NCBI GenBank assembly: GCA_002731275.1
Contig: PCBK01000092.1
Span: 1 to 64,000 of the forward strand
Direction: 5' to 3'
Length of the DNA: 64,000 nt
Source of the DNA: Deltaproteobacteria bacterium
GTDB lineage: Bacteria > Myxococcota_C > UBA6777
Within the stretch, counting starts at the first letter, position 1. Each line of letters opens with the position of its first letter. A model generated the notes under the pieces. That model worked only from the letters and a program-made list of their open reading frames with translations, was not told the origin of the DNA and did no database searches. Positions 23,244 through 64,000 of this stretch are shown one piece after another. The position numbers and the translations under genes were made by a program.

Positions 23244-24662
23244 ATGTTTGTCAAAAAAGGAATCTTCTTCACTCTCTCTTCCATGTTACTTGTTTTATTT
23301 GTCGCTTGTTCAAGTACAGTCCCCAGCACGGATCAACTCCAAAACCTTGGAGCTGTCGACGCGAAAGGTGCAAAAGTCTGTGGACTTGGGACCTGCCTTG
23401 ACTTTCCAGAGGGCGCAGTGGACGCCAAAATGGACATCAAAGCGCGCATCCTCGAAGAACAAAACGACCAATCACTCGGTCCTGTTTACGAATTTGTCAC
23501 AACAAATGAGACCTTTAAAAAGGAGATCAAGATCGAGTTGCCAGTCCCTGCCTCGGCAAAGGACGAAGAGCTCGAAGTCGCCTTCTATAAGGATGGCGAA
23601 TGGGTCGCAGTGCCCACAACGAAAAGTACCGATGGGATGACCCGCATTGGACTCTCCAACCACTTCAGTAAGTGGACTGTCCGCCGTAAACCTCCCACAA
23701 ACAGCAAGGCGTGCAAAGCTCATGCAGATTGTGCTCGTGGTGAGATCTGTGACAATGGAGCGTGCAAAGCAGGCCCAAACACCAACCCCAACGGATGCTC
23801 ATCTGACGCAGATTGTATCCAAAACAAAGTCTGTCTCAACGGAACTTGTCAAACAAGAACCAACCCCAACACTTGCACATCCGACGCAGATTGCGCTCGC
23901 GGTGAGATCTGCAACCCAATGACTCGGACTTGTAAAGTACAAAATGGTGGTTGCACACCGACAAAAGAAGTCTGTGGAGACCGCATCGATAACGATTGCG
24001 ATGGGATCGTCGACGAAGGCTGCAACACCAACCCCGGCGGATGCTCGTCAGACGCAGACTGCATCCAAAACAAAGTCTGTGTCAGAGGAACATGCCAAGC
24101 AAGAACCCCCCCAGCAGGTTGCACGTCCGATGCAGACTGTATCCAAAACAAAATCTGTGTCAGAGGAACATGCCAAACAAGGCCAGCTCCTAATACCTGC
24201 ACATCCAACGCAGACTGTGCTCGCGGCGAAGTCTGCCAAAACGGCACATGTCAAACGAACACCAACCCTGGTGGATGCTCATCAGACGCAGACTGCATCC
24301 AAAACAAAATGTGCCTCAATGGAACTTGTCAAACAAGACCAGCCCCTAACACCTGCACATCCGACGCAGACTGTGCTCGCGGCGAAGTCTGCGACGCAAC
24401 GACTCGGACTTGTAAAGTACAAAATGGTGGTTGTACACCGACAAAAGAAGTCTGTGGAGACCGCATCGATAACGATTGCGATGGAATCGTCGACGAAGGT
24501 TGCAACACCAACCCCGGCGGGTGTTCATCAGACGCAGATTGCATCCAAAACAAGGTGTGTCTCAATGGTACATGTCAAACAAGAACCAATCCAATGGGTT
24601 GTCGATCGGACGCGGATTGTGCGCCTTCACAAACATGCACAAACAACGGCGTGTGTCGCTAA
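23244..24662 (+). CDS. Cysteine-repeat lipoprotein with ZU5-like N-terminal domain
   Basis: The 472-residue product has a lipoprotein signal (lipobox FVAC, Cys22). A beta domain of about 110 residues follows ('GLGTCLDFPEGAV' to 'GLSNHFSKWTV'), resembling a ZU5/GAIN-associated fold. The rest is about a dozen tandem cysteine units of the type 'CTSDADC(A/I)xxxxCxxGTC', interrupted twice by the MopE-like 'EVCGDRIDNDCDGIVDEGC'. These motifs are typical of myxobacterial surface proteins and may bind copper or calcium, or just form disulfides. The start has GGAG nine bases upstream. The gene after it encodes a shorter relative. The 219-base gap before it holds TGTATGCATACA (23091-23102), a palindrome that could be an operator. 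Confidence 0.82.
   Translation: MFVKKGIFFTLSSMLLVLFVACSSTVPSTDQLQNLGAVDAKGAKVCGLGTCLDFPEGAVDAKMDIKARILEEQNDQSLGPVYEFVTTNETFKKEIKIELPVPASAKDEELEVAFYKDGEWVAVPTTKSTDGMTRIGLSNHFSKWTVRRKPPTNSKACKAHADCARGEICDNGACKAGPNTNPNGCSSDADCIQNKVCLNGTCQTRTNPNTCTSDADCARGEICNPMTRTCKVQNGGCTPTKEVCGDRIDNDCDGIVDEGCNTNPGGCSSDADCIQNKVCVRGTCQARTPPAGCTSDADCIQNKICVRGTCQTRPAPNTCTSNADCARGEVCQNGTCQTNTNPGGCSSDADCIQNKMCLNGTCQTRPAPNTCTSDADCARGEVCDATTRTCKVQNGGCTPTKEVCGDRIDNDCDGIVDEGCNTNPGGCSSDADCIQNKVCLNGTCQTRTNPMGCRSDADCAPSQTCTNNGVCR
23866..24588 (+). repeat. Internal duplication with 480-bp offset
   Basis: Within the cysteine-repeat gene, roughly 23866-24108 recurs at 24346-24588, exactly 480 bases later. The core around 23921-24040 differs at only a few, mostly third-codon positions. 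The unit encodes one MopE-like motif plus neighbouring cysteine units, so the protein grew by recent in-frame duplication. Confidence 0.85.
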
Positions 24663-45789: not shown

Positions 45790-46034
45790 CCCGTTTGCAT
45801 TGTGCCTACGCGCTCGATTGGAGCGCACAGGATGGCACAACCGGGTTTCCACGATTGAGACAGGATCTCTCCGACTGGCTCCCTCATCTTAGAGGTGAGC
45901 GGAAAACTGAATGATACGTTCTGTTCTTGACTTACTTCTCAAAAGAGAAGCGTACATCGGGGATAGACGCCACCGCAGGTCAGCGAGCATCGAGTGATGG
46001 CTGATTTGTTTTTGCAAGATTGGAGACTTGTTTG
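45788..46034 (+). promoter_or_regulatory. Structured intercistronic region between nqrA and nqrB
   Basis: A three-helix nested structure starts at the nqrA stop. AACCCG (45788-45793) pairs with CGGGTT (45842-45847), TTGTGCC (45800-45806) with GGCACAA (45834-45840), and GCGCTC (45810-45815) with GAGCGC (45821-45826). A second hairpin CTTCTC-AAAA-GAGAAG lies at 45935-45950, just after a TTGACT box (45927-45932). It may stabilise or attenuate the transcript, or hold a second promoter for nqrB onward. I see no gene in it. Confidence 0.45.
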
Positions 46035-47294
46035 ATGAAATTCCTCAGAGATTTTTTGGACAAGCAAGAAAAGCACTTTGAAAAAGGCGGGAAGCTCGAA
46101 AAGTTTTATGCGCTCTACGAGATGCATGACACGATTCTCTTTACTCCGTCTGATGTCAACAAAGGCAATACGCACGTCCGAGACTCTATCGACCTCAAGC
46201 GCATGATGATCACCGTCGTCGTCGCCTTGATTCCATGTATCTTGATGGCGTTTTACAACACCGGCTATCAAGCAAACCACGCGATCGCAAACCTCGGCGC
46301 CAAGCCCCTCGCGATCTGGCAAACCACAGTGTACGCCAAGTGGTTGGGCCTCACACACGATCCCACAAATATCCTCGCCAACTTCGTGTATGGCGGGTTA
46401 TTCTTTTTGCCTGTCCTGATCACAACCTTTGCGGTCGGTGGTATCATCGAAGTCACGAACGCGATCGTTCGTGGACACGAAGTCAACGAAGGCTTCCTCG
46501 TCACAGGCTTTTTGCTTCCTTTGACCTTGCCTCCGACGATCCCACTGTGGCAGGTCGCGATGGGCGCAGCATTTGGCGTCCTGATCGGAAAGGAAATCTT
46601 TGGCGGTACAGGGATGAACGTCCTCAACCCAGCGTTGACAGGGCGTGCGTTTTTGTTCTTTGCCTATCCCGCGCAGATCTCGGGTGACAGCCCCTGGATC
46701 GCGGCCAACATGCTCGGCGCAAAAGCTTCCAGCACGCTCCCAGACGCAGTCAGTGGCGCGACATGGCTCGGAAAAGCAGCGACTAGCAAGATGGCCCTCG
46801 CAGGACACAACATCTTCGGTGCGGAGTGGTGGAACGCCTTCTTGGGCTTTGTCCCAGGGTCTATGGGTGAGACCTCCGCGCTCGCCTGCCTGATCGGTGC
46901 AGTCATCTTGATCGCCACACAGGTCGCCTCCTGGCGGACGATGCTCGGCGTGGTCCTCGGGACCTTCCTCACCTGTCTGCTCCTCGGCAATGTCCAATCC
47001 GAAACCAACCACATGTTCTCCGTGCCCTTCCACTGGCACATCGTCACAGGAGGTTGGGCGTTTGGCCTCGTCTTCATGGCGACTGACCCTGTGTCTTCGG
47101 CATTTACAGAGGCTGGCAAGTTTATCTATGGCTTCTGTATCGGGATCATGGTCATCTTGGTGCGCGTCGTAAACCCTGCTTACCCAGAAGGGATGATGCT
47201 CGCCATCTTGTTTATGAACATGTTTGCCCCCTTCATCGACCACTTCTACGTTCAAGCGAACATCAAACGGAGATTAGCACGCGATGCAGCGTAA
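46035..47294 (+). CDS. nqrB: Na+-translocating NADH-quinone reductase subunit B
   Basis: NqrB is the large membrane subunit that carries covalent FMN and riboflavin and forms part of the sodium channel. The 419-residue product has about nine to ten helices. The flavinylation motif SGAT (240-243) places the FMN phosphoester on Thr243. The motif region 'GKEIFGGTGMNVLNPALTGRAFL' (186-207) is typical. I chose ATG 46035, with GGAGA eight bases upstream; a TTG 15 bases earlier is a poor alternative. It overlaps nqrC by 11 bases. Confidence 0.96.
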   Translation: MKFLRDFLDKQEKHFEKGGKLEKFYALYEMHDTILFTPSDVNKGNTHVRDSIDLKRMMITVVVALIPCILMAFYNTGYQANHAIANLGAKPLAIWQTTVYAKWLGLTHDPTNILANFVYGGLFFLPVLITTFAVGGIIEVTNAIVRGHEVNEGFLVTGFLLPLTLPPTIPLWQVAMGAAFGVLIGKEIFGGTGMNVLNPALTGRAFLFFAYPAQISGDSPWIAANMLGAKASSTLPDAVSGATWLGKAATSKMALAGHNIFGAEWWNAFLGFVPGSMGETSALACLIGAVILIATQVASWRTMLGVVLGTFLTCLLLGNVQSETNHMFSVPFHWHIVTGGWAFGLVFMATDPVSSAFTEAGKFIYGFCIGIMVILVRVVNPAYPEGMMLAILFMNMFAPFIDHFYVQANIKRRLARDAA

Positions 47295-48132
47295 TAGCGT
47301 ACCCTACATTCTAGGCTTTTGCACGGCTATCTGTTTGGTTTGCTCGGTCATTGTATCGACAGCCGCAGTTGGCCTGAAGGAAAAGCAAGAACAAAACAAG
47401 ATCCTCGATCGCCAAAAGAAGGTCCTGACTGTCGCTGGTCTCATCAAAGAAACAGAGGCAGTCACACCCAAAAAGGTGCAAGAGTTGTTCAAAAAGCGCA
47501 TCAAGTCGATCATCGTCGACCTGAAAGGCGGCACTTTGGACAAGGCCATGACCAAAAAGGCGAAAACATTCGACCAACAAAAAGCCAAAAAAGATCCCGC
47601 ACGTAGCACCTCTGCTCCGAAAAACAGAGCGGGTGTCAAGCGTCTGCCCAAACACGCCCTCGTCTATCTCGTCTCCAAGACGGATATCAAAGAAGATGGC
47701 AAAGGCTTTGCGCTCGACAAATACATCTTCCCCATCGAAGGAAAAGGGCTGTGGTCCACACTCTACGGATTCATCGCCCTCGCTCCAAACTTCAACGTGA
47801 TCAGAGGTCTTATCTTCTACGATCACGCTGAAACCCCTGGTCTCGGTGGTGAAGTCGAAAACCCCAGCTGGAAAGCCAAATGGCCCGGACGTACAGTTTA
47901 CGGCCCCAAAGGCAGCAGCCCCAAATCCTGGGGCAAACCCAAGATCAAAGTCGTCAAGGGCTTGGCTGGACCTCCCTCCAAAGACCCACACAAAGTGGAT
48001 GGACTCTCCGGTGCGACCATCACAAGTAATGGTGTCACTCACCTCGTCAGATTCTGGCTCGGTGAAAACGGTTTTGGACCATTCATCCGTCACAAGCTTG
48101 GTCTCAAACAAGCCAGCAAAGGAGGGAAGTGA
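47284..48132 (+). CDS. nqrC: Na+-translocating NADH-quinone reductase subunit C
   Basis: NqrC has one N-terminal helix (about 8-30) and a periplasmic domain carrying covalent FMN. The attachment motif '[10 protein letters not shown]' puts FMN on Thr245. The 282-residue length is normal. It overlaps nqrB by 11 bases and its stop shares bases with the nqrD start (GTGATGA region). ApbE, encoded three genes further on, is the enzyme that attaches the FMN. Confidence 0.96.
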
Positions 48133-48752
48133 TGAGTAAAGCAAACGAAGCGCTGATTGATCCACTCTTTGACAACAACCCCATCGCCCTCCAAGTCCTC
48201 GGGATTTGTTCGGCGCTCGCGGTCACGACAAAGCTCGAAACTGCGACCGTTATGGCGATCGCGGTGACCGCGGTCCTCGCGTTGTCCAACCTGTCGATCA
48301 GTATCCTGCGTAACTACATTCCACCTAGTATCCGTATTATCGTGCAGCTGACGATCATCGCATCGCTCGTTATCGTCACCGACCAGATCCTCAAAGCGTA
48401 CATGTTTGAAATCAGCAAACAGCTCTCCGTCTTTGTTGGATTGATCATCACCAACTGTATCGTCATGGGCCGCGCTGAAGCCTTCGCGATGCAAAATGGT
48501 CCCCGCCTCAGCTTCATCGACGGTATCGGCAACGGTCTTGGCTACGGCCTCGTGCTGCTCTTTGTCGGTGTCTTCCGCGAGCTGTTCGGAGCAGGGAAAC
48601 TCTTCGGTATCACCATCCTGCCCCTCGCGAGCAACGGTGGCTGGTACATGCCCAACGGCCTGATGGTCCTCTCCCCCGCTGCGTTCTTTTTGATTGGCGT
48701 GTTTATCTGGTTGCTCCGCACCTGGAAGCCCGAACAAGTAGAGGAAGATTGA
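48132..48752 (+). CDS. nqrD: Na+-translocating NADH-quinone reductase subunit D
   Basis: NqrD is an integral membrane subunit with six helices. With NqrE it holds an iron centre in the membrane and forms part of the electron and sodium path. The 206-residue product has '[15 protein letters not shown]' (helix I cysteine), '[15 protein letters not shown]' and 'GLGYGLVL', all typical. I chose ATG 48132 (AAAGGAGG upstream) over the GTG three bases earlier. It ends one base before nqrE. Confidence 0.96.
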
Positions 48753-48753
48753 T

Positions 48754-49416
48754 ATGGAACTCACTTTGCTACTGGCTGCCAAAGCTGGCTTGGCTTCGAA
48801 TCTAGAAGCCTACCTGAGCCTGGCTATCAAAGCCATCTTCGTAGAAAACATGGCGCTCGCCTTCTTTTTGGGAATGTGCTCCTTCCTCGCCGTCTCCAAA
48901 AAGGTCGACACCGCCATCGGTCTCGGCGCCGCAGTCGTCTTCGTCCTCGCGATCTGTACGCCACTTAACAACCTCGTATACACATACCTCTTGAAGGAAG
49001 GTGCTCTCGCTTGGCTGAGCCCCAAGTTCGCCACTGTCGACCTCTCCTTCTTGTCCTTTCTTACATTCATTGGAACCATCGCAGCAACCGTACAGGTCGT
49101 AGAGATGGCCATTGACAAGTTTGCGCCTGCACTCTACGCGACGCTCGGGATCTTCTTGCCCCTGATCGCTGTCAACTGCGCCATCCTCGGTTCTTCCTTG
49201 TTCATGATGGAACGCGACTACAACCTCCCTGAGAGTACAGTCTTTGGACTCGGCTCAGGGATCGGCTTCATGCTCGCGATCGTCGCGCTTGCTGCTATCC
49301 GCGAAAAAATGCGTTACAGCGATGTTCCAAAGGGCTTGCGCGGTCTCGGTATCACCTTCATGGTGACCGGACTGATGGCAATTGGTTTTATGGCCTTCGC
49401 AGGTATCCAACTCTAA
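48754..49416 (+). CDS. nqrE: Na+-translocating NADH-quinone reductase subunit E
   Basis: NqrE is the pseudo-symmetric partner of NqrD, with six helices and conserved cysteines that ligate the intramembrane iron. The 220-residue product has '[24 protein letters not shown]' split over residues 31-54 and '[12 protein letters not shown]' (about 146-157), with one cysteine in each. It begins one base after the nqrD stop. An intrinsic terminator follows before nqrF. Confidence 0.96.
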
Positions 49417-49421
49417 AAAAT

Positions 49422-49452
49422 CCTGACGGCCCAAAGGCCGCAGGCTTTTTTT
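49422..49452 (+). terminator. Intrinsic terminator/attenuator between nqrE and nqrF
   Basis: CCT..CGGCC (49422-49431) pairs with GGCCG.AGG (49436-49444) around loop CAAA, followed by C and seven T (49446-49452). The stem has a small internal loop. Six A before the stem (49415-49420) would also allow reverse termination. It starts six bases after the nqrE stop and ends just before the nqrF ribosome site (AGGAGG). Confidence 0.7.
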
Positions 49453-49468
49453 CCAGGAGGTTTGATTC

Positions 49469-50752
49469 ATGACAACAGCAGTCCTCGGAGTCGCTGTCTT
49501 CGTCTTTGTCATCGTGGCCCTCGTCGTCATCTTGATGGTCGCTCGTGGGCAACTCGTCAACACAGCTGACGTCAAGATCATCGTCAACGGTGACGAAGAA
49601 AATCCTATCGTTACACCCGCAGGGAGCACCCTGCTCAACGCACTCGCCGCACAAAAAATCTTCATCCCCTCCGCTTGCGGTGGTGGTGGGACATGTGGTG
49701 TCTGTAAAGTCAATGTAGAGTCCGGTGGTGGTGCCATCCTCCCCACCGAGCGCACACACGTTACACGTGGCGAAGAGCGCGAAGGTTGTCGTCTCTCTTG
49801 TCAAGTCAAAGTCAAAAATGACATGCACATCGAGCTCGAGCCCGAGATCTTCGGTGTGCGCAAGTGGGAATGTACTGTCCGCTCCAACGAAAACGTCGCG
49901 ACGTTCATCAAAGAATTCGTCATCGAGCTGCCCGAAGGTGAAGAAGTTCCCTTCCGCGCAGGTGGGTACATCCAAATTGAATGTCCCCCACACGTCGTCA
50001 AGTACGAAGACTTTGAGATCGAAGAAGAGTACCGCGGTGATTGGGACAAATTTGGCATGTGGGGCTTTGTCTCCGACGTCAAAGAGACCGCAACGCGCGC
50101 ATACTCCATGGCAAACTACCCCGAAGAGAAGGGCATCATCATGCTCAACGTGCGGATCGCAAGCCCACCTTGGGACCGCGCAAACAACAAATGGATGGAC
50201 GTTCCCCCAGGGATCATGTCCTCCTATATCTTCGGTTGTAAACCCGGTGACAAAGTCACCATCTCCGGTCCCTTCGGTGAATTCTTCGCAAAAGAGACTG
50301 ACAACGAGATGGTCTTCATCGGTGGTGGTGCGGGAATGGCGCCCATGCGCTCCCACATCTTCGACCAATTCAAACGTATCGGCACCAAACGCAAGGTCTC
50401 ATACTGGTACGGCGCTCGTAGCTACCGCGAAGCCTTCTACGTCGAAGACTTCGATGAGATCCAAGCGAACAACGACAACTTTGTATGGCACCTCGCCCTC
50501 TCTGATGTCGCCGAAGAAGACGATTGGGGCAACCCCGAAGCCGAAAGTCGAAAACCACTCGGCTGTAAAGAAGGCTACGTCGGATTTATCCACAACGTCC
50601 TCTACGAACACTACCTCAAAGATCACCCCTCCCCAGAGGACTGTGAATACTACCTCTGTGGTCCCCCCATGATGAACACTGCGGTCATCAACATGCTGCT
50701 CGACCTCGGCGTCGAACCCGAAAACATCGCACTCGATGACTTCGGAGGATAA
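49469..50752 (+). CDS. nqrF: Na+-translocating NADH-quinone reductase subunit F
   Basis: NqrF is the entry subunit that oxidises NADH. The 427-residue product has an N-terminal helix (about 4-26), a [2Fe-2S] ferredoxin domain with Cys70, Cys76, Cys79 and Cys111, an FAD domain (motif 'RAYSMANYP') and an NADH domain ('[15 protein letters not shown]' near residue 290). The end 'DDFGG' is typical. CAGGAGG precedes the ATG. Expression may be lower than nqrA-E because of the terminator upstream. apbE begins nine bases after its stop. Confidence 0.97.
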
Positions 50753-50761
50753 GCAAGCCCG

Positions 50762-51883
50762 ATGACTGACCAACCCTCCCCCTCCTCCTCTTCTCCTCCA
50801 CTCTCTGAAACCATCCCAGGCGGAACCCGAAGATTTATCCTTCCAGGGATCTTTGTACTCGTCCTCTTTGGTGTCCTCTTCTACAGAATGCCCCGCAAAC
50901 AAGCCACAACACACAGTGTCTGGCATGTCCAAGGGCGCATCTTTGGGACGACCTATAACATCAAAGTCATCCACAAGACAAAGCTCCCAAAGGGTCTTCA
51001 TATGCGCCTCAAGGCCGCACTTCAGCGAGTCGATGAGCAGATGTCGACGTACAATAAAAAGTCTGAACTCTCCCGATTCAACGCCTTCAAACAGACGACG
51101 CCCTTCAAAGTCTCCGCGGCGCTCGTGCAGGTTGTCTCAAAAGCCCACGAGATCACGAAGATGACAGGCGGTGCGTTTGATGTGACCATCGGTCCAGTGA
51201 TCAACGCCTGGGGCTTCGGTCCCAAAAAGCGAATCAAACCACCCGCCCAAGATGTCCTCGACAAAGCCAAACAGCGCGTCGGTGCGGCGAAACTCACCTA
51301 CGACAACAACACACACACCCTCCGCAAGACCCGCGCGGATTTGTACGTCGACCTCTCGGCGATCGCGAAGGGATACGGTGTCGATGTCGTAGGACGTGAG
51401 CTCGAACGAGCTGGGTTTCGGGATTATATGGTCGAGATTGGTGGTGAAGTTCGTGCTCGCGGAAAGAACCCACGCGGCATCGCGTGGCGCATTGGGATTG
51501 AAAAACCTGGACAAGGACAACAGCAAATCCATACAGTCGTCCCCCTCCACAACATGTCGATGGCGACGTCTGGGAATTATCGCAATTACATCACCGTCCA
51601 AGGAAAGCGCATATCCCACATCATCGACGCTCGGACCGCCAACCCGATCACACATGACCTAGCCTCTGTCAGTGTCTTCCACAAGGACTGCACGACGGCT
51701 GATGCCCTCGCGACAGCCCTCTTTGTCCTCGGCGCCAAAGAAGGTCTGGCGCTCGCCGAGACACACAAACTCGCGGTCGCCTTCCTCGTCCCCAAGGGCA
51801 AAGGCTTTGTCATGCGTGCCTCGAAAACCTTCCAAGCGCTCACCTCACCACAACACAAAAAGCCTGCCACACGTAAACCTTGA
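50762..51883 (+). CDS. apbE: FAD:protein FMN transferase (flavinylation of NqrB/NqrC)
   Basis: ApbE transfers FMN from FAD to a threonine of the target's SGAT-type motif on the periplasmic side. Here NqrB and NqrC both carry that motif. The 373-residue product has one N-terminal helix (about 26-42) after a Ser/Pro-rich start, 'FDVTIGPVINAWGFG' (about 140-154), 'LSAIAKGYGVDVV' and 'VEIGGEVRARG'. The late metal-binding block 'CTTADALATALFVLG' near residue 302 is also present. It belongs to the nqr operon, nine bases after nqrF. Confidence 0.94.
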   Translation: MTDQPSPSSSSPPLSETIPGGTRRFILPGIFVLVLFGVLFYRMPRKQATTHSVWHVQGRIFGTTYNIKVIHKTKLPKGLHMRLKAALQRVDEQMSTYNKKSELSRFNAFKQTTPFKVSAALVQVVSKAHEITKMTGGAFDVTIGPVINAWGFGPKKRIKPPAQDVLDKAKQRVGAAKLTYDNNTHTLRKTRADLYVDLSAIAKGYGVDVVGRELERAGFRDYMVEIGGEVRARGKNPRGIAWRIGIEKPGQGQQQIHTVVPLHNMSMATSGNYRNYITVQGKRISHIIDARTANPITHDLASVSVFHKDCTTADALATALFVLGAKEGLALAETHKLAVAFLVPKGKGFVMRASKTFQALTSPQHKKPATRKP

Positions 51884-52014
51884 CGCGTTGCGTTTTTCCA
51901 CTATCATGCCCACGTTACACACGATGTCCGCTCGTATACACAGGACATCGTGATTCCCAACGTCTTGAACTCAAAACCTCGGTGCGATGAAAGTTCCAGG
52001 TGAAGGAGATAAAT

Positions 52015-52215
52015 ATGCTCCCCGTCTTTTTACTCTCCCTCGGATTGATCGCGATCATCATGACGATCATGGCTGTCGGTGTGATCTTCTCAAACAAAGA
52101 ACTCAAAGGTTCATGTGGCGGTCCCGGTAATTGTGAATGTGAACGCAAAGGGATCCCCAAAAAATGTGAACAAGTGGCCAACCAAATCCTCGAAAGCATC
52201 AACGAAACCCCCTGA
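52015..52215 (+). CDS. nqrM: NqrM, Na+-NQR maturation protein
   Basis: The 66-residue product has one N-terminal helix (about 3-25) and four cysteines in 'CGGPGNCECERKGIPKKC', the conserved cysteine pattern of NqrM (DUF539). In Vibrio, NqrM is needed to insert iron between NqrD and NqrE. AAGGAG lies six bases before the ATG. It is the last gene of the nqr operon, about 130 bases after apbE. The hairpin at 52254-52284 could also end the operon transcript, but its main T-run faces the other way. Confidence 0.9.
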   Translation: MLPVFLLSLGLIAIIMTIMAVGVIFSNKELKGSCGGPGNCECERKGIPKKCEQVANQILESINETP

Positions 52216-52248: not shown

Positions 52249-52284
52249 AAAAAAAAGGAGTCGGCGAGCGATGCCGACTCCTTT
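52249..52284 (-). terminator. Intrinsic terminator of RNA copy 1
   Basis: On the minus strand a 9-bp GC-rich stem (52273-52281 with 52257-52265) is extended by three A-T pairs, has a 7-base loop and ends in eight T. On the plus strand only three T follow, so minus-strand termination is favoured. Confidence 0.9.
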
Positions 52285-52470
52285 GAATCAAAAAGAAGAG
52301 GAAGGAGGTCCACACTTGCAAGGTCAATCCACTCCCATAGATCGAATCCTTGCTTGTTGACTGAGAGATGACATGCCTGTCACCTGAAGGCTATTCTGTC
52401 CAGAACGAAGCGCTTCACTTGCAAGCAACATCCGTGTTGCCTGGAGACATCTTCCATGATGCCTCGTCCC
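52249..52470 (-). ncRNA. CsrB/RsmZ-like regulatory RNA, copy 1
   Basis: The inferred transcript (about 222 bases, minus strand) contains eight GGA motifs outside the terminator. Three hairpins present GGA in the loop: GAGGCATC-ATGGAA-GATGTCTC, GCAACA-CGGA-TGTTGC and TTCT-GGAC-AGAA. The second reads ACACGGATGT, close to the ACARGGAUGU consensus that CsrA/RsmA binds best. A fourth hairpin TGACA-GGCA-TGTCA and a larger stem GCAAGG/CCTTGC around more GGA follow. It ends at a 12-bp terminator stem and eight U. A possible -10 box is GAATAA (52477-52482). A homologous copy lies at 58979-59201. CsrB-type RNAs titrate CsrA; that function is inferred. No csrA gene is in the window. Confidence 0.75.
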
Positions 52471-52532
52471 TGTCTGTTATTCAGCCTACACATCTTCCTC
52501 CCCTCACACAGTGAAAGACCTCACAAGACACA

Positions 52533-52548
52533 TGTGAAATATTTCACA
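52533..52548. promoter_or_regulatory. CRP-like palindrome upstream of RNA copy 1
   Basis: TGTGAAATATTTCACA is a perfect palindrome matching the Crp-type consensus TGTGA-N6-TCACA. It is centred about 70 bases before the inferred RNA start. The same site sits at the same distance before copy 2. The rest of 52471-52799 holds no gene I can support. Confidence 0.6.
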
Positions 52549-58941: not shown

Positions 58942-58978
58942 AGGTGTTGGGGCCTCGCCTTTTTCGTGTCGCAGGCAC

Positions 58979-59014
58979 AAAAAAAAGGAGTCGGCGAGCG
59001 ATGCCGACTCCTTT
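58979..59014 (-). terminator. Intrinsic terminator of RNA copy 2
   Basis: The stem 59003-59011 with 58987-58995, loop and eight T on the minus strand are identical to the terminator of copy 1. Confidence 0.9.
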
Positions 59015-59201
59015 GAATCAAAAAGAAGAGGAAGGAGGTCCACACTTGCAAGGGCCAATCCACTCCCATAGATCGACACCTTGCTCGTTGACTGGGAAAT
59101 GACATGCCTGTCATCTGAAGGCCATCCTATCCAGGATATGGCACTTCACTTCTGGAAAACATCCATGTTTCCCGGAGACATCATCCTTGGTGTCTCGTCC
59201 C
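58979..59201 (-). ncRNA. CsrB/RsmZ-like regulatory RNA, copy 2
   Basis: This is a second, diverged copy of the RNA at 52249-52470 (inferred about 223 bases). The 3' end and terminator are almost identical, while the 5' half differs in sequence but keeps the hairpins. Hairpin B is GGAAACA-TGGA-TGTTTTCC (loop ACATGGATGT). Hairpin C is ATCCT-GGAT-AGGAT inside GCC/GGC, against TTCT-GGAC-AGAA inside GCT/AGC in copy 1. The U-A to C-G exchanges in hairpin C keep pairing, which supports RNA function. Possible -10: CATAAG (59208-59213). It lies between two protein genes, with no overlap. Confidence 0.75.
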
Positions 59202-59263
59202 TGTCTGCTTATGACACTACATCTTTTTCCTCTTCAGCACAGTGAAACACCCCACAGCGTGAG

Positions 59264-59279
59264 TGTGAAACATTTCACA
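59264..59279. promoter_or_regulatory. CRP-like palindrome upstream of RNA copy 2
   Basis: TGTGAAACATTTCACA fits TGTGA-N6-TCACA and lies about 70 bases before the inferred RNA start, the same distance as in copy 1. A second conserved stretch CAGTGAAA lies between it and the RNA start in both copies. Confidence 0.6.
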
Positions 59280-61142: not shown

Positions 61143-61460
61143 CAAAAGGAGCGATGCAGGAAGGAACAGAACCCCCTCAGACGGGCTTTGGTTGATAGAA
61201 CAACCTGGGGTTTTCACCCCAGACCCCACGATGCTCACGCATCGTCTGTGTTGCGCTCTTCGAGCGCTGGGAAAGGCTGCAAGAGCGATGCAAAAAGAGG
61301 GAACAGGACCCCCTCAGACGGGCTTCGCCCGCTAGCTCCCTGCTGCTCAACTGCGTAGGCAAGGGGAGCGATGCAAGACCCCCTCAGACGGGCTTCGCCC
61401 GCCAGCTCCCCCTGTAAGACCTGCGCTTTGCTTCGGTCGACAAGGGGAGCGATGCATATC
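61143..61460. repeat. Cluster of short hairpin repeats, family A
   Basis: The unit starts (g)GGAGCGATGCA, continues ACCCCCTCAGACGGGC and ends GCTCCC, so ends pair (GGGGAGC with GCTCCCC) around an inner CGGGC-TTC-GCCCG hairpin. Copies begin near 61149 (degenerate), 61283, 61363 and 61444 (partial). Other hairpins between them are CTGGGG/CCCCAG (61205-61222) and GCGCTC-TTC-GAGCGC (61253-61267). There is no gene in 61038-61460 I can support. Confidence 0.7.
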
Positions 61461-61554
61461 AAAGGATATATCGCGATATAAACGAAAAACACGCGTATAT
61501 CGGTTTGATCTCAGTAGGGTCGGGCCTTGTGTCCGACCTCAATCTCCGTATATA

Positions 61555-62220
61555 TGGTTTGAATGGTCCCTCCTCTCGAAAGGATTGAGAGGAGGGAAGA
61601 GCCGAAGGCTCAGGGTGGTGAGTTTGTTGAGGCGTATGTTGCAAGTGAAGACGCAAAAAACCCACTAAAAGCTCGCGAGCAAAAGGGAATCCAAGGATAT
61701 GGCTTGCTATATCCGCCTGGAAGAAAGGGATGAAATAGTGGAGTCAGGGGAGTTTGCGGAGACACAAGTGCAACGTCCGCCGGATCAGAAATCTAGAATC
61801 CCCCGTGAATATCGGGAGAATAGCCCCTCCTCTCGAAAGGCTTGAGAGGAGGGAAGAGCCGAAGGCTCAGGGTGGAGAGTTTGTTGAGGCATATGTTGCA
61901 AAGCGCACGAAGCAAACGTCCTCATAGGACAGCTTTGCTTTGGACGCAAGTGCAACGTCTGCCGGAACAGAAATCTAGAATCCCCCCGTATATACCGGGC
62001 AAATGGTCCCTCCTCTCGAAAGGTTTGAGAGGAGGGAAGAGCCGAAGGCTCAGGGTGGAGAGTTTGTTGAGGCATATGTTGCAAAGCGCACGAAGCAAAT
62101 CAGCCACGAAGAAAAGCCTCTCCAAGAAGAGCATTGTAGGTGGTAAAGCCCCAACCCTGAGGGGGTTCAACCGGGGTCCAGCGGCCGCCCACTGGTGCAA
62201 CGTCCGCCGGAGCAGCACTA
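61555..62220. repeat. Direct repeats with paired hairpins, family B
   Basis: Three copies (61564-61643, 61822-61915, 62004-62100) share CCTCCTCTC-GAAAGGNTT-GAGAGGAGG followed by GAGCC-GAA-GGCTC and a conserved stretch ending TATGTTGCAA. The loop base N is A, C and T in turn. A second element, GTGCAACGTCYGCCGGA, precedes copies 2 and 3 (61768, 61950) and recurs at 62195. The CTAGA motif follows it. Copies 2 and 3 are 183 bases apart. The small frames inside are repeat by-products. The repeats abut the stop of the HEAT-repeat gene. Confidence 0.75.
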
Positions 62221-62224
62221 GAGA

Positions 62225-64000
62225 TTATTTGTAAAGGAGGCGTTTGGTAGCCTGTTGGATCTCAGGCTCTTCATCCCGCAAGAGTTGACGTCGCAAGCCC
62301 CTCACGACCTCATTCCGCAAAGAGAAACGTCTCAAAATAGAGACAAACGCCAAACGCACACGCCATTCATCCTCCCGTATATGCTCGAAGAGTGACTTTA
62401 ACTCCTCCGTCTTTGCGCTCGCACCAAGCGCCTGTAATGCAGCGATCCGCACAAGCAACGTACAATGCTTCAACAACGGCGCGATCGCACCTCGTACTGA
62501 CCGTGAAGACGTGCCCATCCGACGCAACACATCAAGCGCCGCGATCAACGTCCTCTCATCCTGCAACACATACCTCAGCGAAGCATCGAGGCGCAACAAT
62601 GACGCCTCCCTCCAGGCCACAAGTCCGCGAACAGCCGACTCTCGAACGCGTACGTGCTTGTCCTCTAATAACTCCATCAACAGCGACACCTGAAAGAACA
62701 ACACCTGCCGACAATCACGCCATAAAGACGTTTGATTCGACCACACCAACGCACCCCCCAAAGCACCACGACAGACACCTTTGTTCGACGCAGCCATGTC
62801 ACCTAACAGACGTGCAGCCTGCCGTCTCAGCTTCCAAGAGGACGCCCTCGCAGCCCGACGTAGATACACCTTGCCCTCCCCTTGCCAGGAGACAATGATC
62901 TCCCTCGCGAGGGACTTCTCGTACCAGAAACCTCTCTCCAGAAGAGAGAGCACAAGCTGCCCAATCCTCAGACTCTCAGGACCAAACGCCTTGATCGCAC
63001 GAAGTGACGCCTCACGTAACATCGCAGAAGAGCGAACCTCACGCAAAACAGAGGCCTTTGAACTTGTAGGTCTCGACATCGGGGCGGGCTTTGGGAGAAA
63101 CACCGTCGCAAGCACAGGCAACACACGTTTAGGTTCCATACCGAGCTGACCGAGCGCCTTGATCGCCGCGAGACGATTGCGTCGATGTGCGTCACGTAAT
63201 GCCGACAACAGCGTAGAGACCGCCCCCGGAAGATGACGCCCTCGCACACCCAAGAGACGAATCGCCATACGACGAACGCGCCAATGAGAGTGCTCGACCT
63301 TCTTCGTCCACCAGCGCCCTTGTCGTTGTGTCTTCACAATCTTGAAGACCTCATCTCCCAACGTGAGCATCGTGTACTTCGTCTTCCCGAGGCGTTTAAA
63401 CCAATCAGGGCGACTCAAAAGACCGAGCCCATAAGCCGGCGATGTCTGGTAAGACAACCTCATAGAAGGATAACACGACCTCCTCCCGCCTACACCCACG
63501 ACGCACTTCATTTTGGACGAGACGATAGGAACTTTGATCGTGGGGAGCTTGGGAGTCTTAGGCTTTTCCACCCGGACAAAAGACCACGGACCCCTTTGCA
63601 ACGCCGCCAACATACCCGGATACGCTTTGGCACCGAGCATCTTGAGCGCTCTTCGTGTCCACCTCGCCTGATCTTTGTCTTTTGCGAGCAACCCCTTGGT
63701 CAACGTCCCGATCAAATAATCTGGCAACACCGTCTTGTTTGGAAATGTATGGAAAGCCTGGATAGCCTCACGTCTGACGCTAGCGTCCGGATCTGCAAGG
63801 TGGCGCTGCCAGCGAATAAAGAAGCCCATCTGTGCCGATGACATCCCCTCGTAAAAAGAGGACAACACACGCAACGCCCGCGACCGTACAAGCGGATCAG
63901 GAGCATCGACAAGGCGTATCATTTCAGGAAAGAGGACTTTTTTGTGCTTGAGCCCCACAAAGAGACGCAACGCCAACAGGTGAGAAGACAATCGACGCCC
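62225..64000 (-). CDS. HEAT-repeat protein, 5' end beyond the window
   Basis: The frame stays open to the window edge, so the N-terminus is missing; at least 590 residues are visible. The sequence is a run of HEAT-like helical pairs ('DPDASVRREAIQAF', 'DKHVRVRESAVRGLVAW', 'DEWRVRLAFVSILRRF'), a fold that forms curved protein-binding scaffolds. No signal or catalytic motif can be seen in this part. The stop lies next to the repeat cluster. It is unrelated in detail to the HEAT region of the kinase at 5024-8641, though both use similar repeats. Confidence 0.8.
   Translation of the reverse strand, partial: GRRLSSHLLALRLFVGLKHKKVLFPEMIRLVDAPDPLVRSRALRVLSSFYEGMSSAQMGFFIRWQRHLADPDASVRREAIQAFHTFPNKTVLPDYLIGTLTKGLLAKDKDQARWTRRALKMLGAKAYPGMLAALQRGPWSFVRVEKPKTPKLPTIKVPIVSSKMKCVVGVGGRRSCYPSMRLSYQTSPAYGLGLLSRPDWFKRLGKTKYTMLTLGDEVFKIVKTQRQGRWWTKKVEHSHWRVRRMAIRLLGVRGRHLPGAVSTLLSALRDAHRRNRLAAIKALGQLGMEPKRVLPVLATVFLPKPAPMSRPTSSKASVLREVRSSAMLREASLRAIKAFGPESLRIGQLVLSLLERGFWYEKSLAREIIVSWQGEGKVYLRRAARASSWKLRRQAARLLGDMAASNKGVCRGALGGALVWSNQTSLWRDCRQVLFFQVSLLMELLEDKHVRVRESAVRGLVAWREASLLRLDASLRYVLQDERTLIAALDVLRRMGTSSRSVRGAIAPLLKHCTLLVRIAALQALGASAKTEELKSLFEHIREDEWRVRLAFVSILRRFSLRNEVVRGLRRQLLRDEEPEIQQATKRLLYK

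Follow-up and report, generated by a model that had tools for sequence, protein, structure and literature searches.

Csr-type small RNAs and related regulators

The RNA antagonists of the widespread CsrA protein are established mainly in Gammaproteobacteria, while FliW is thought to be used elsewhere (PMC4682653, PMC7652899). Among CsrA-bearing species, FliW and BarA-UvrY are strongly anti-correlated, BarA-UvrY driving the Csr sRNAs and FliW being proposed as the antagonist in the non-gamma groups (PMC4682653). In the literature searched, the Csr sRNAs outside Gammaproteobacteria are predictions only (Geobacter, PMC5568370; discussed in PMC11934962), those of Geobacter sulfurreducens being RsmA-type sRNAs of 71-88 nt predicted with InvenireSRNA (PMC5568370).

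The gammaproteobacterial CsrB/CsrC and RsmX/Y/Z are noncoding RNAs that present several GGA motifs in loops, one of them near the SELEX optimum, and that end in an intrinsic terminator; they exist as several paralogous copies in genomes possessing CsrA, with palindromic activator sites upstream. All these traits are seen or predicted in the sRNA described here, which comes from a Deltaproteobacteria bacterium (assembly GCA_002731275.1) and has two of its three genes in the 64,000-nt stretch of contig PCBK01000092.1 that was analysed (hereafter the window). It departs from CsrB/CsrC and RsmX/Y/Z in having no Rfam match and no visible UvrY/GacA box, in its tandem CRP-type sites and invariant anti-Shine-Dalgarno (anti-SD) linker, and in its lineage, which lies outside Gammaproteobacteria. 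The RNAs predicted in G. sulfurreducens are likewise computational Csr-type candidates outside Gammaproteobacteria, but they measure 71-88 nt and their host possesses FliW as well. Another point of comparison is provided by the alpha-r14/cuckoo RNAs of Alphaproteobacteria (NfeR1), in which an unpaired anti-SD motif is also invariant while the stems diverge. However, the alpha-r14/cuckoo RNAs are defined by three hairpins each with CCUCCUCCC, whereas the present sRNA has a single CCUCCU, carries GGA-loop hairpins, shows an unrelated terminator and promoter, and has no Rfam match. Finally, McaS of E. coli both base-pairs and binds CsrA, a possible two-function design that the present sRNA may share, although the sequences are unrelated and four GGA loops with an anti-SD motif stand here against a specific seed in McaS. 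The combination of CsrA-decoy-like GGA loops and an anti-SD motif in one RNA was not found described in the literature searched.

Our best reading is that of a new Csr/Rsm-like sRNA, CsrB/RsmZ-like in its working but outside those Rfam families, and we consider it rather probable that the RNAs of the three genes, two in the window and one on contig C24, are mainly CsrA decoys. If true, a genome combining CsrA, no FliW and a Csr-like RNA controlled in the CRP manner would imply that decoys made of RNA have arisen, or have survived, outside Gammaproteobacteria with another switch, and that the additional anti-SD element brings together two kinds of control in a single RNA.

Extent, fold and GGA placement of copy 1

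Copy 1 lies on the minus strand at 52249..52475 (~227 nt), between the end of nqrM (52215) and the start of the next gene. Its 5' end would be at ~52475, 5 bases beyond the edge given in the initial annotation, since in all three copies the same distance separates AGACA(A/G)GG from a TAnnnT element. The minus strand folds very stably: the 222-nt stretch reaches -88.4 kcal/mol, compared to -66.6 in shuffles (z -5.07). The intrinsic terminator with eight U that had been announced is present too, with a 12-bp stem (52254..52284, minus strand) and eight T at 52256-52249. A coding role was discarded by direct reading, the 25-codon ORF starting from ATGGAAGAT in copy 1 being absent from copy 2.

The initial annotation had counted eight GGA motifs, three of them in hairpin loops. 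The count of eight holds outside the terminator stem, which contains a ninth within the 227 nt, but four are located in loops, namely AUGGAA, ACACGGAUGU, CUGGACAG and UAUGGGAGUG, with unpaired probabilities of 0.98-1.00. While the number of GGA taken alone is mildly unusual (P ~0.02-0.05), four loop-GGA were obtained in 0 of 500 dinucleotide shuffles (mean 0.4), and loop placement rather than count is the strong part of the evidence in copy 1. As an internal control, 531 kb of this genome were scanned: among the 57 terminator-like sites present there, four loop-GGA in the preceding 190 nt were found only at those of copies 1 and 2.

Regarding the individual hairpins, the CsrA SELEX consensus is RUACARGGAUGU (PMC7652899), and the claim that one loop GGA comes close to it proved correct: the site at the apex of hairpin 2, ACACGGAUGU (52428..52437, minus strand) and ACAUGGAUGU, is one core position off, hairpin 2 agreeing with the best CsrA ligand at 9 of 10 core positions. 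The sequence ACANGGATGT occurs five times in 474 kb, both strands included, two of these occurrences being in copies 1 and 2. Hairpin 3 exposes the GGA of CUGGACAG (52396..52403, minus strand) on a stem with two compensatory changes in copy 2, and the apex of hairpin 5, UAUGGGAGUG (52330..52339, minus strand), is identical in copies 1-3. Several details nevertheless count against CsrA decoys. The consensus purine position of hairpin 2 is C in copy 1 and U in copy 2, the ideal A is missing from the GGGA of hairpin 5, hairpin 4 carries GGC, and the hairpin stems, with 8-9 pairs, exceed those of most SELEX ligands. The apex of hairpin 4, ACAGGCAUGU (52371..52380 in copy 1 and 59102-59111 in copy 2, minus strand), resembles a CsrA site in which GGC replaces GGA.

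Copies 2 and 3 and their shared core

The search for homologues succeeded within the genome itself, where BLAST detected copy 2 at 58964-59279 and, on contig C24, a partial match. Copy 2 (58979..59206, minus strand) shares 83% identity with copy 1 across the RNA and its promoter, folds with a z of -5.36 (58979-59205), and lies 6.7 kb from copy 1 within the window. Direct reading of contig C24 revealed copy 3, a shorter gene of ~147 nt: its 5' domain, closed by GAC...GUC, contains one hairpin with the loop AUGGAA, compared to four hairpins in copies 1 and 2, and is followed by hairpin 5 with the loop GGGA, the linker, and then a different terminator stem. Loop-GGA thus number four in copy 1, four in copy 2 and two in copy 3.

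Of the 13 pairs that vary from copy 1 to copy 2, 11 are still paired, four of them changed on both sides. When the same substitutions are placed at random on stem columns, 7.5 of 15.9 pairs are kept (P ~0.004 for kept pairs, ~0.003 for two-sided changes). The GGA of all four loops is also retained, which at 13% divergence would be weak evidence if taken alone. Common to all three copies are the promoter module, the enclosed 5' domain, the GGGA-loop hairpin and the 24-nt linker, with CUAUGGGAGUGG and the linker AAGUGUGGACCUCCUUCCUCUUCU as invariant sequences. As just two loop-GGA are present in copy 3, what is invariant in the RNA family is the core with the linker rather than the GGA loops, this conservation resting on three paralogues of a family found in one genome.

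The proximity of copies 1 and 2 could correspond to a local duplication, and hence to an intergenic repeat structured by chance rather than to an RNA gene. We hold this to be highly improbable in view of the promoter sites in common, the compensatory stem changes, the terminator, and the presence of the same architecture in the divergent copy 3 on another contig.

Beyond this genome, the searches were negative. Rfam, interrogated at gathering score and up to E = 10, returned no CsrB, CsrC or RsmX/Y/Z match, and the STnc390 and SCARNA7 matches were attributed to chance. BLASTN did not find the sRNA in four family relatives, all of which have CsrA, and a covariance model built on hairpin 5 and the linker recovered only the genome's own three copies among the five genomes. 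A weak covariance match in one relative (G002, L047), just upstream of an apparent rpmH, and a BLAST match on contig C79 (L005) were both judged to be chance, and a site with two loop-GGA (L076:13956) bears no resemblance to the sRNA. The searches at the order, class and phylum levels all amounted to these same five genomes in the searched set, and the myxobacterium-like lineage put forward at first is not established.

A tandem CRP-like promoter module

Upstream of each copy are found tandem sites of the form TGTG-N6-TTCAC with 23 bp between their centres. In copy 1, the distal palindrome TGTGAAATATTTCACA (52533..52548, minus strand) is centred at ~-64.5, in the same place in the three copies, and the proximal site TGTGAGGTCTTTCACT (52510..52525, minus strand) at ~-41.5; in copy 2, the tandem sites were read directly at 59241..59279 (minus strand). 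With respect to the putative start, the centre of the proximal site is at -41.5 in copies 1 and 2 and at -40.5 in copy 3. A candidate -10 element occupies a position common to copies 1-3, being TAGGCT in copy 1 (52483..52488, minus strand), TAGTGT in copy 2 and TACACT in copy 3. The CRP consensus is TGTGA-N6-TCACA, and -41.5 is the class II position. A CRP/FNR-type regulator bound at the two tandem sites would turn the sRNA genes on. No 18-bp UvrY/GacA box was seen upstream of the sRNA by direct reading, TGTGA-N6-TCACA-type sites being there instead.

The genome contains the exact tandem pattern five times, compared to none for the reversed-pattern control; three of these are the sRNA genes, and other occurrences apparently precede protein genes, which suggests a wider regulon to which the sRNA genes would belong. 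Ahead of apparent protein-coding genes, the 23-bp tandem module was noted at G000:C22:81095-81132 and G000:C70:22614-22651 (L042, L043), and at C109:24816 and C99:97068. Similar tandem sites exist in the relatives G003 and G004; downstream of the module in relatives, only apparent protein genes and no such RNA were seen.

The anti-Shine-Dalgarno linker

The linker AAGUGUGGACCUCCUUCCUCUUCU (52294..52317, minus strand), identical at 24 of 24 positions, is the longest stretch identical in the three copies, while the stems diverge. This most conserved part of the RNA had, like the tandem promoter, escaped the initial annotation. CCUCCU is the core of the ribosomal anti-SD, and that of the linker (52308-52303) is predicted to occupy the loop in a weak GGA-CCUCCU-UCC hairpin, with unpaired probabilities of 0.74-1.00 except for the first base in copy 1 (0.41). 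An exact linker 18-mer matched six times over 84,980 genomes, in unrelated taxa and at about the chance expectation. The anti-SD hairpin probably confers a second, base-pairing function on the sRNA, in which the invariant linker would pair with the Shine-Dalgarno sequences of some mRNAs.

These features could also be taken, in the main rival reading, to describe a trans-acting base-pairing sRNA whose CCUCCU acts on ribosome binding sites to silence mRNAs, as with alpha-r14/cuckoo, the GGA loops being incidental or serving stability. The identity of a mostly unpaired linker among diverging stems fits this proposal, identical anti-SD motifs with divergent stems being found in alpha-r14 RNAs (PMC10746234), as does its retention in copy 3 with only two loop-GGA. 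Nevertheless, the four loop-GGA of copies 1 and 2 are far beyond chance and needless for a pure anti-SD sRNA, the ACANGGAUGU apex is rare, and a single anti-SD motif is present instead of three, so that pairing as the main role seems to us possible but somewhat unlikely. CsrA sequestration and base-pairing are in any case not exclusive.

A further model would join the two in a two-sided regulator, the GGA loops, as ribosome-site mimics, acting as CsrA decoys and the CCUCCU, as a ribosome-tail mimic, acting as the seed. Base pairs can form between GGGAG in the loop of hairpin 5 and the CUCC(U) of the linker, and CsrA bound to that loop could free the anti-SD, turning the RNA into a CsrA-controlled silencer. 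Because both segments are identical in all copies, the pairing fits but cannot be probed by covariation; control of the seed by CsrA in this way is speculation, and we regard the two-sided regulator as improbable.

CsrA without FliW

The csrA gene whose presence the decoy proposal called for was found: one CsrA (81 bits) was detected by searching the genome. In an alignment with two reference CsrA sequences, it is 46% identical to E. coli CsrA, conserves the RNA-binding residues L4 and R44, and has K at residue 55, as in E. coli, instead of N55. The N55 residue has been linked to FliW binding (PMC13407953). CsrA is present in all five family genomes (the genome itself and the four relatives), and FliW was detected in 0 of 5, the B. 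subtilis and T. maritima controls being positive. A genome with CsrA and without FliW has no known antagonist unless it uses the usual BarA-UvrY-driven RNAs, which makes this sRNA a candidate.

The sRNA decoys would thus fill the antagonist role, the GGA-presenting hairpins binding CsrA dimers and removing CsrA from mRNAs, as the anatomy of the RNA suggests; we infer both CsrA binding and expression of the sRNA. Since CsrA binding has this status and Rfam gives no match, and since hairpin 4 keeps the apex ACAGGCAUGU in copies 1 and 2 without GGA, the structured RNA might have another role, binding another protein or acting by an unrelated regulatory mechanism. The GGA-in-loop statistics and the presence of CsrA without FliW make such a role quite improbable. 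Decoys are favoured by the fold z, the loop-GGA, the compensatory changes, the shared promoter and core, the presence of CsrA, the absence of FliW and K55, and weakened by the lack of an Rfam match, the two loop-GGA of copy 3 and the negative searches for the RNA in four CsrA-bearing relatives. The CsrB/RsmZ type originally assigned is accordingly sustained by anatomy, copy 2, csrA and the absence of FliW, but not by Rfam, by a UvrY/GacA box or by copy 3.

Neighbourhood of the genes

The nqr operon (Na+-translocating NADH:quinone reductase; window 46020-52215, plus strand), which ends in apbE and nqrM, adjoins copy 1 directly upstream in convergent orientation. The relatives G001 and G004 retain apbE-nqrM, and no such RNA was seen downstream of it in the stretch read in either genome. 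Elsewhere in the window, repeats spaced 78 nt and 246 nt were observed at 23749-24622, probably in a repeat protein gene, and short direct repeats lie near 61.2-62.2 kb, at 61304-61410 and 61543-62231.
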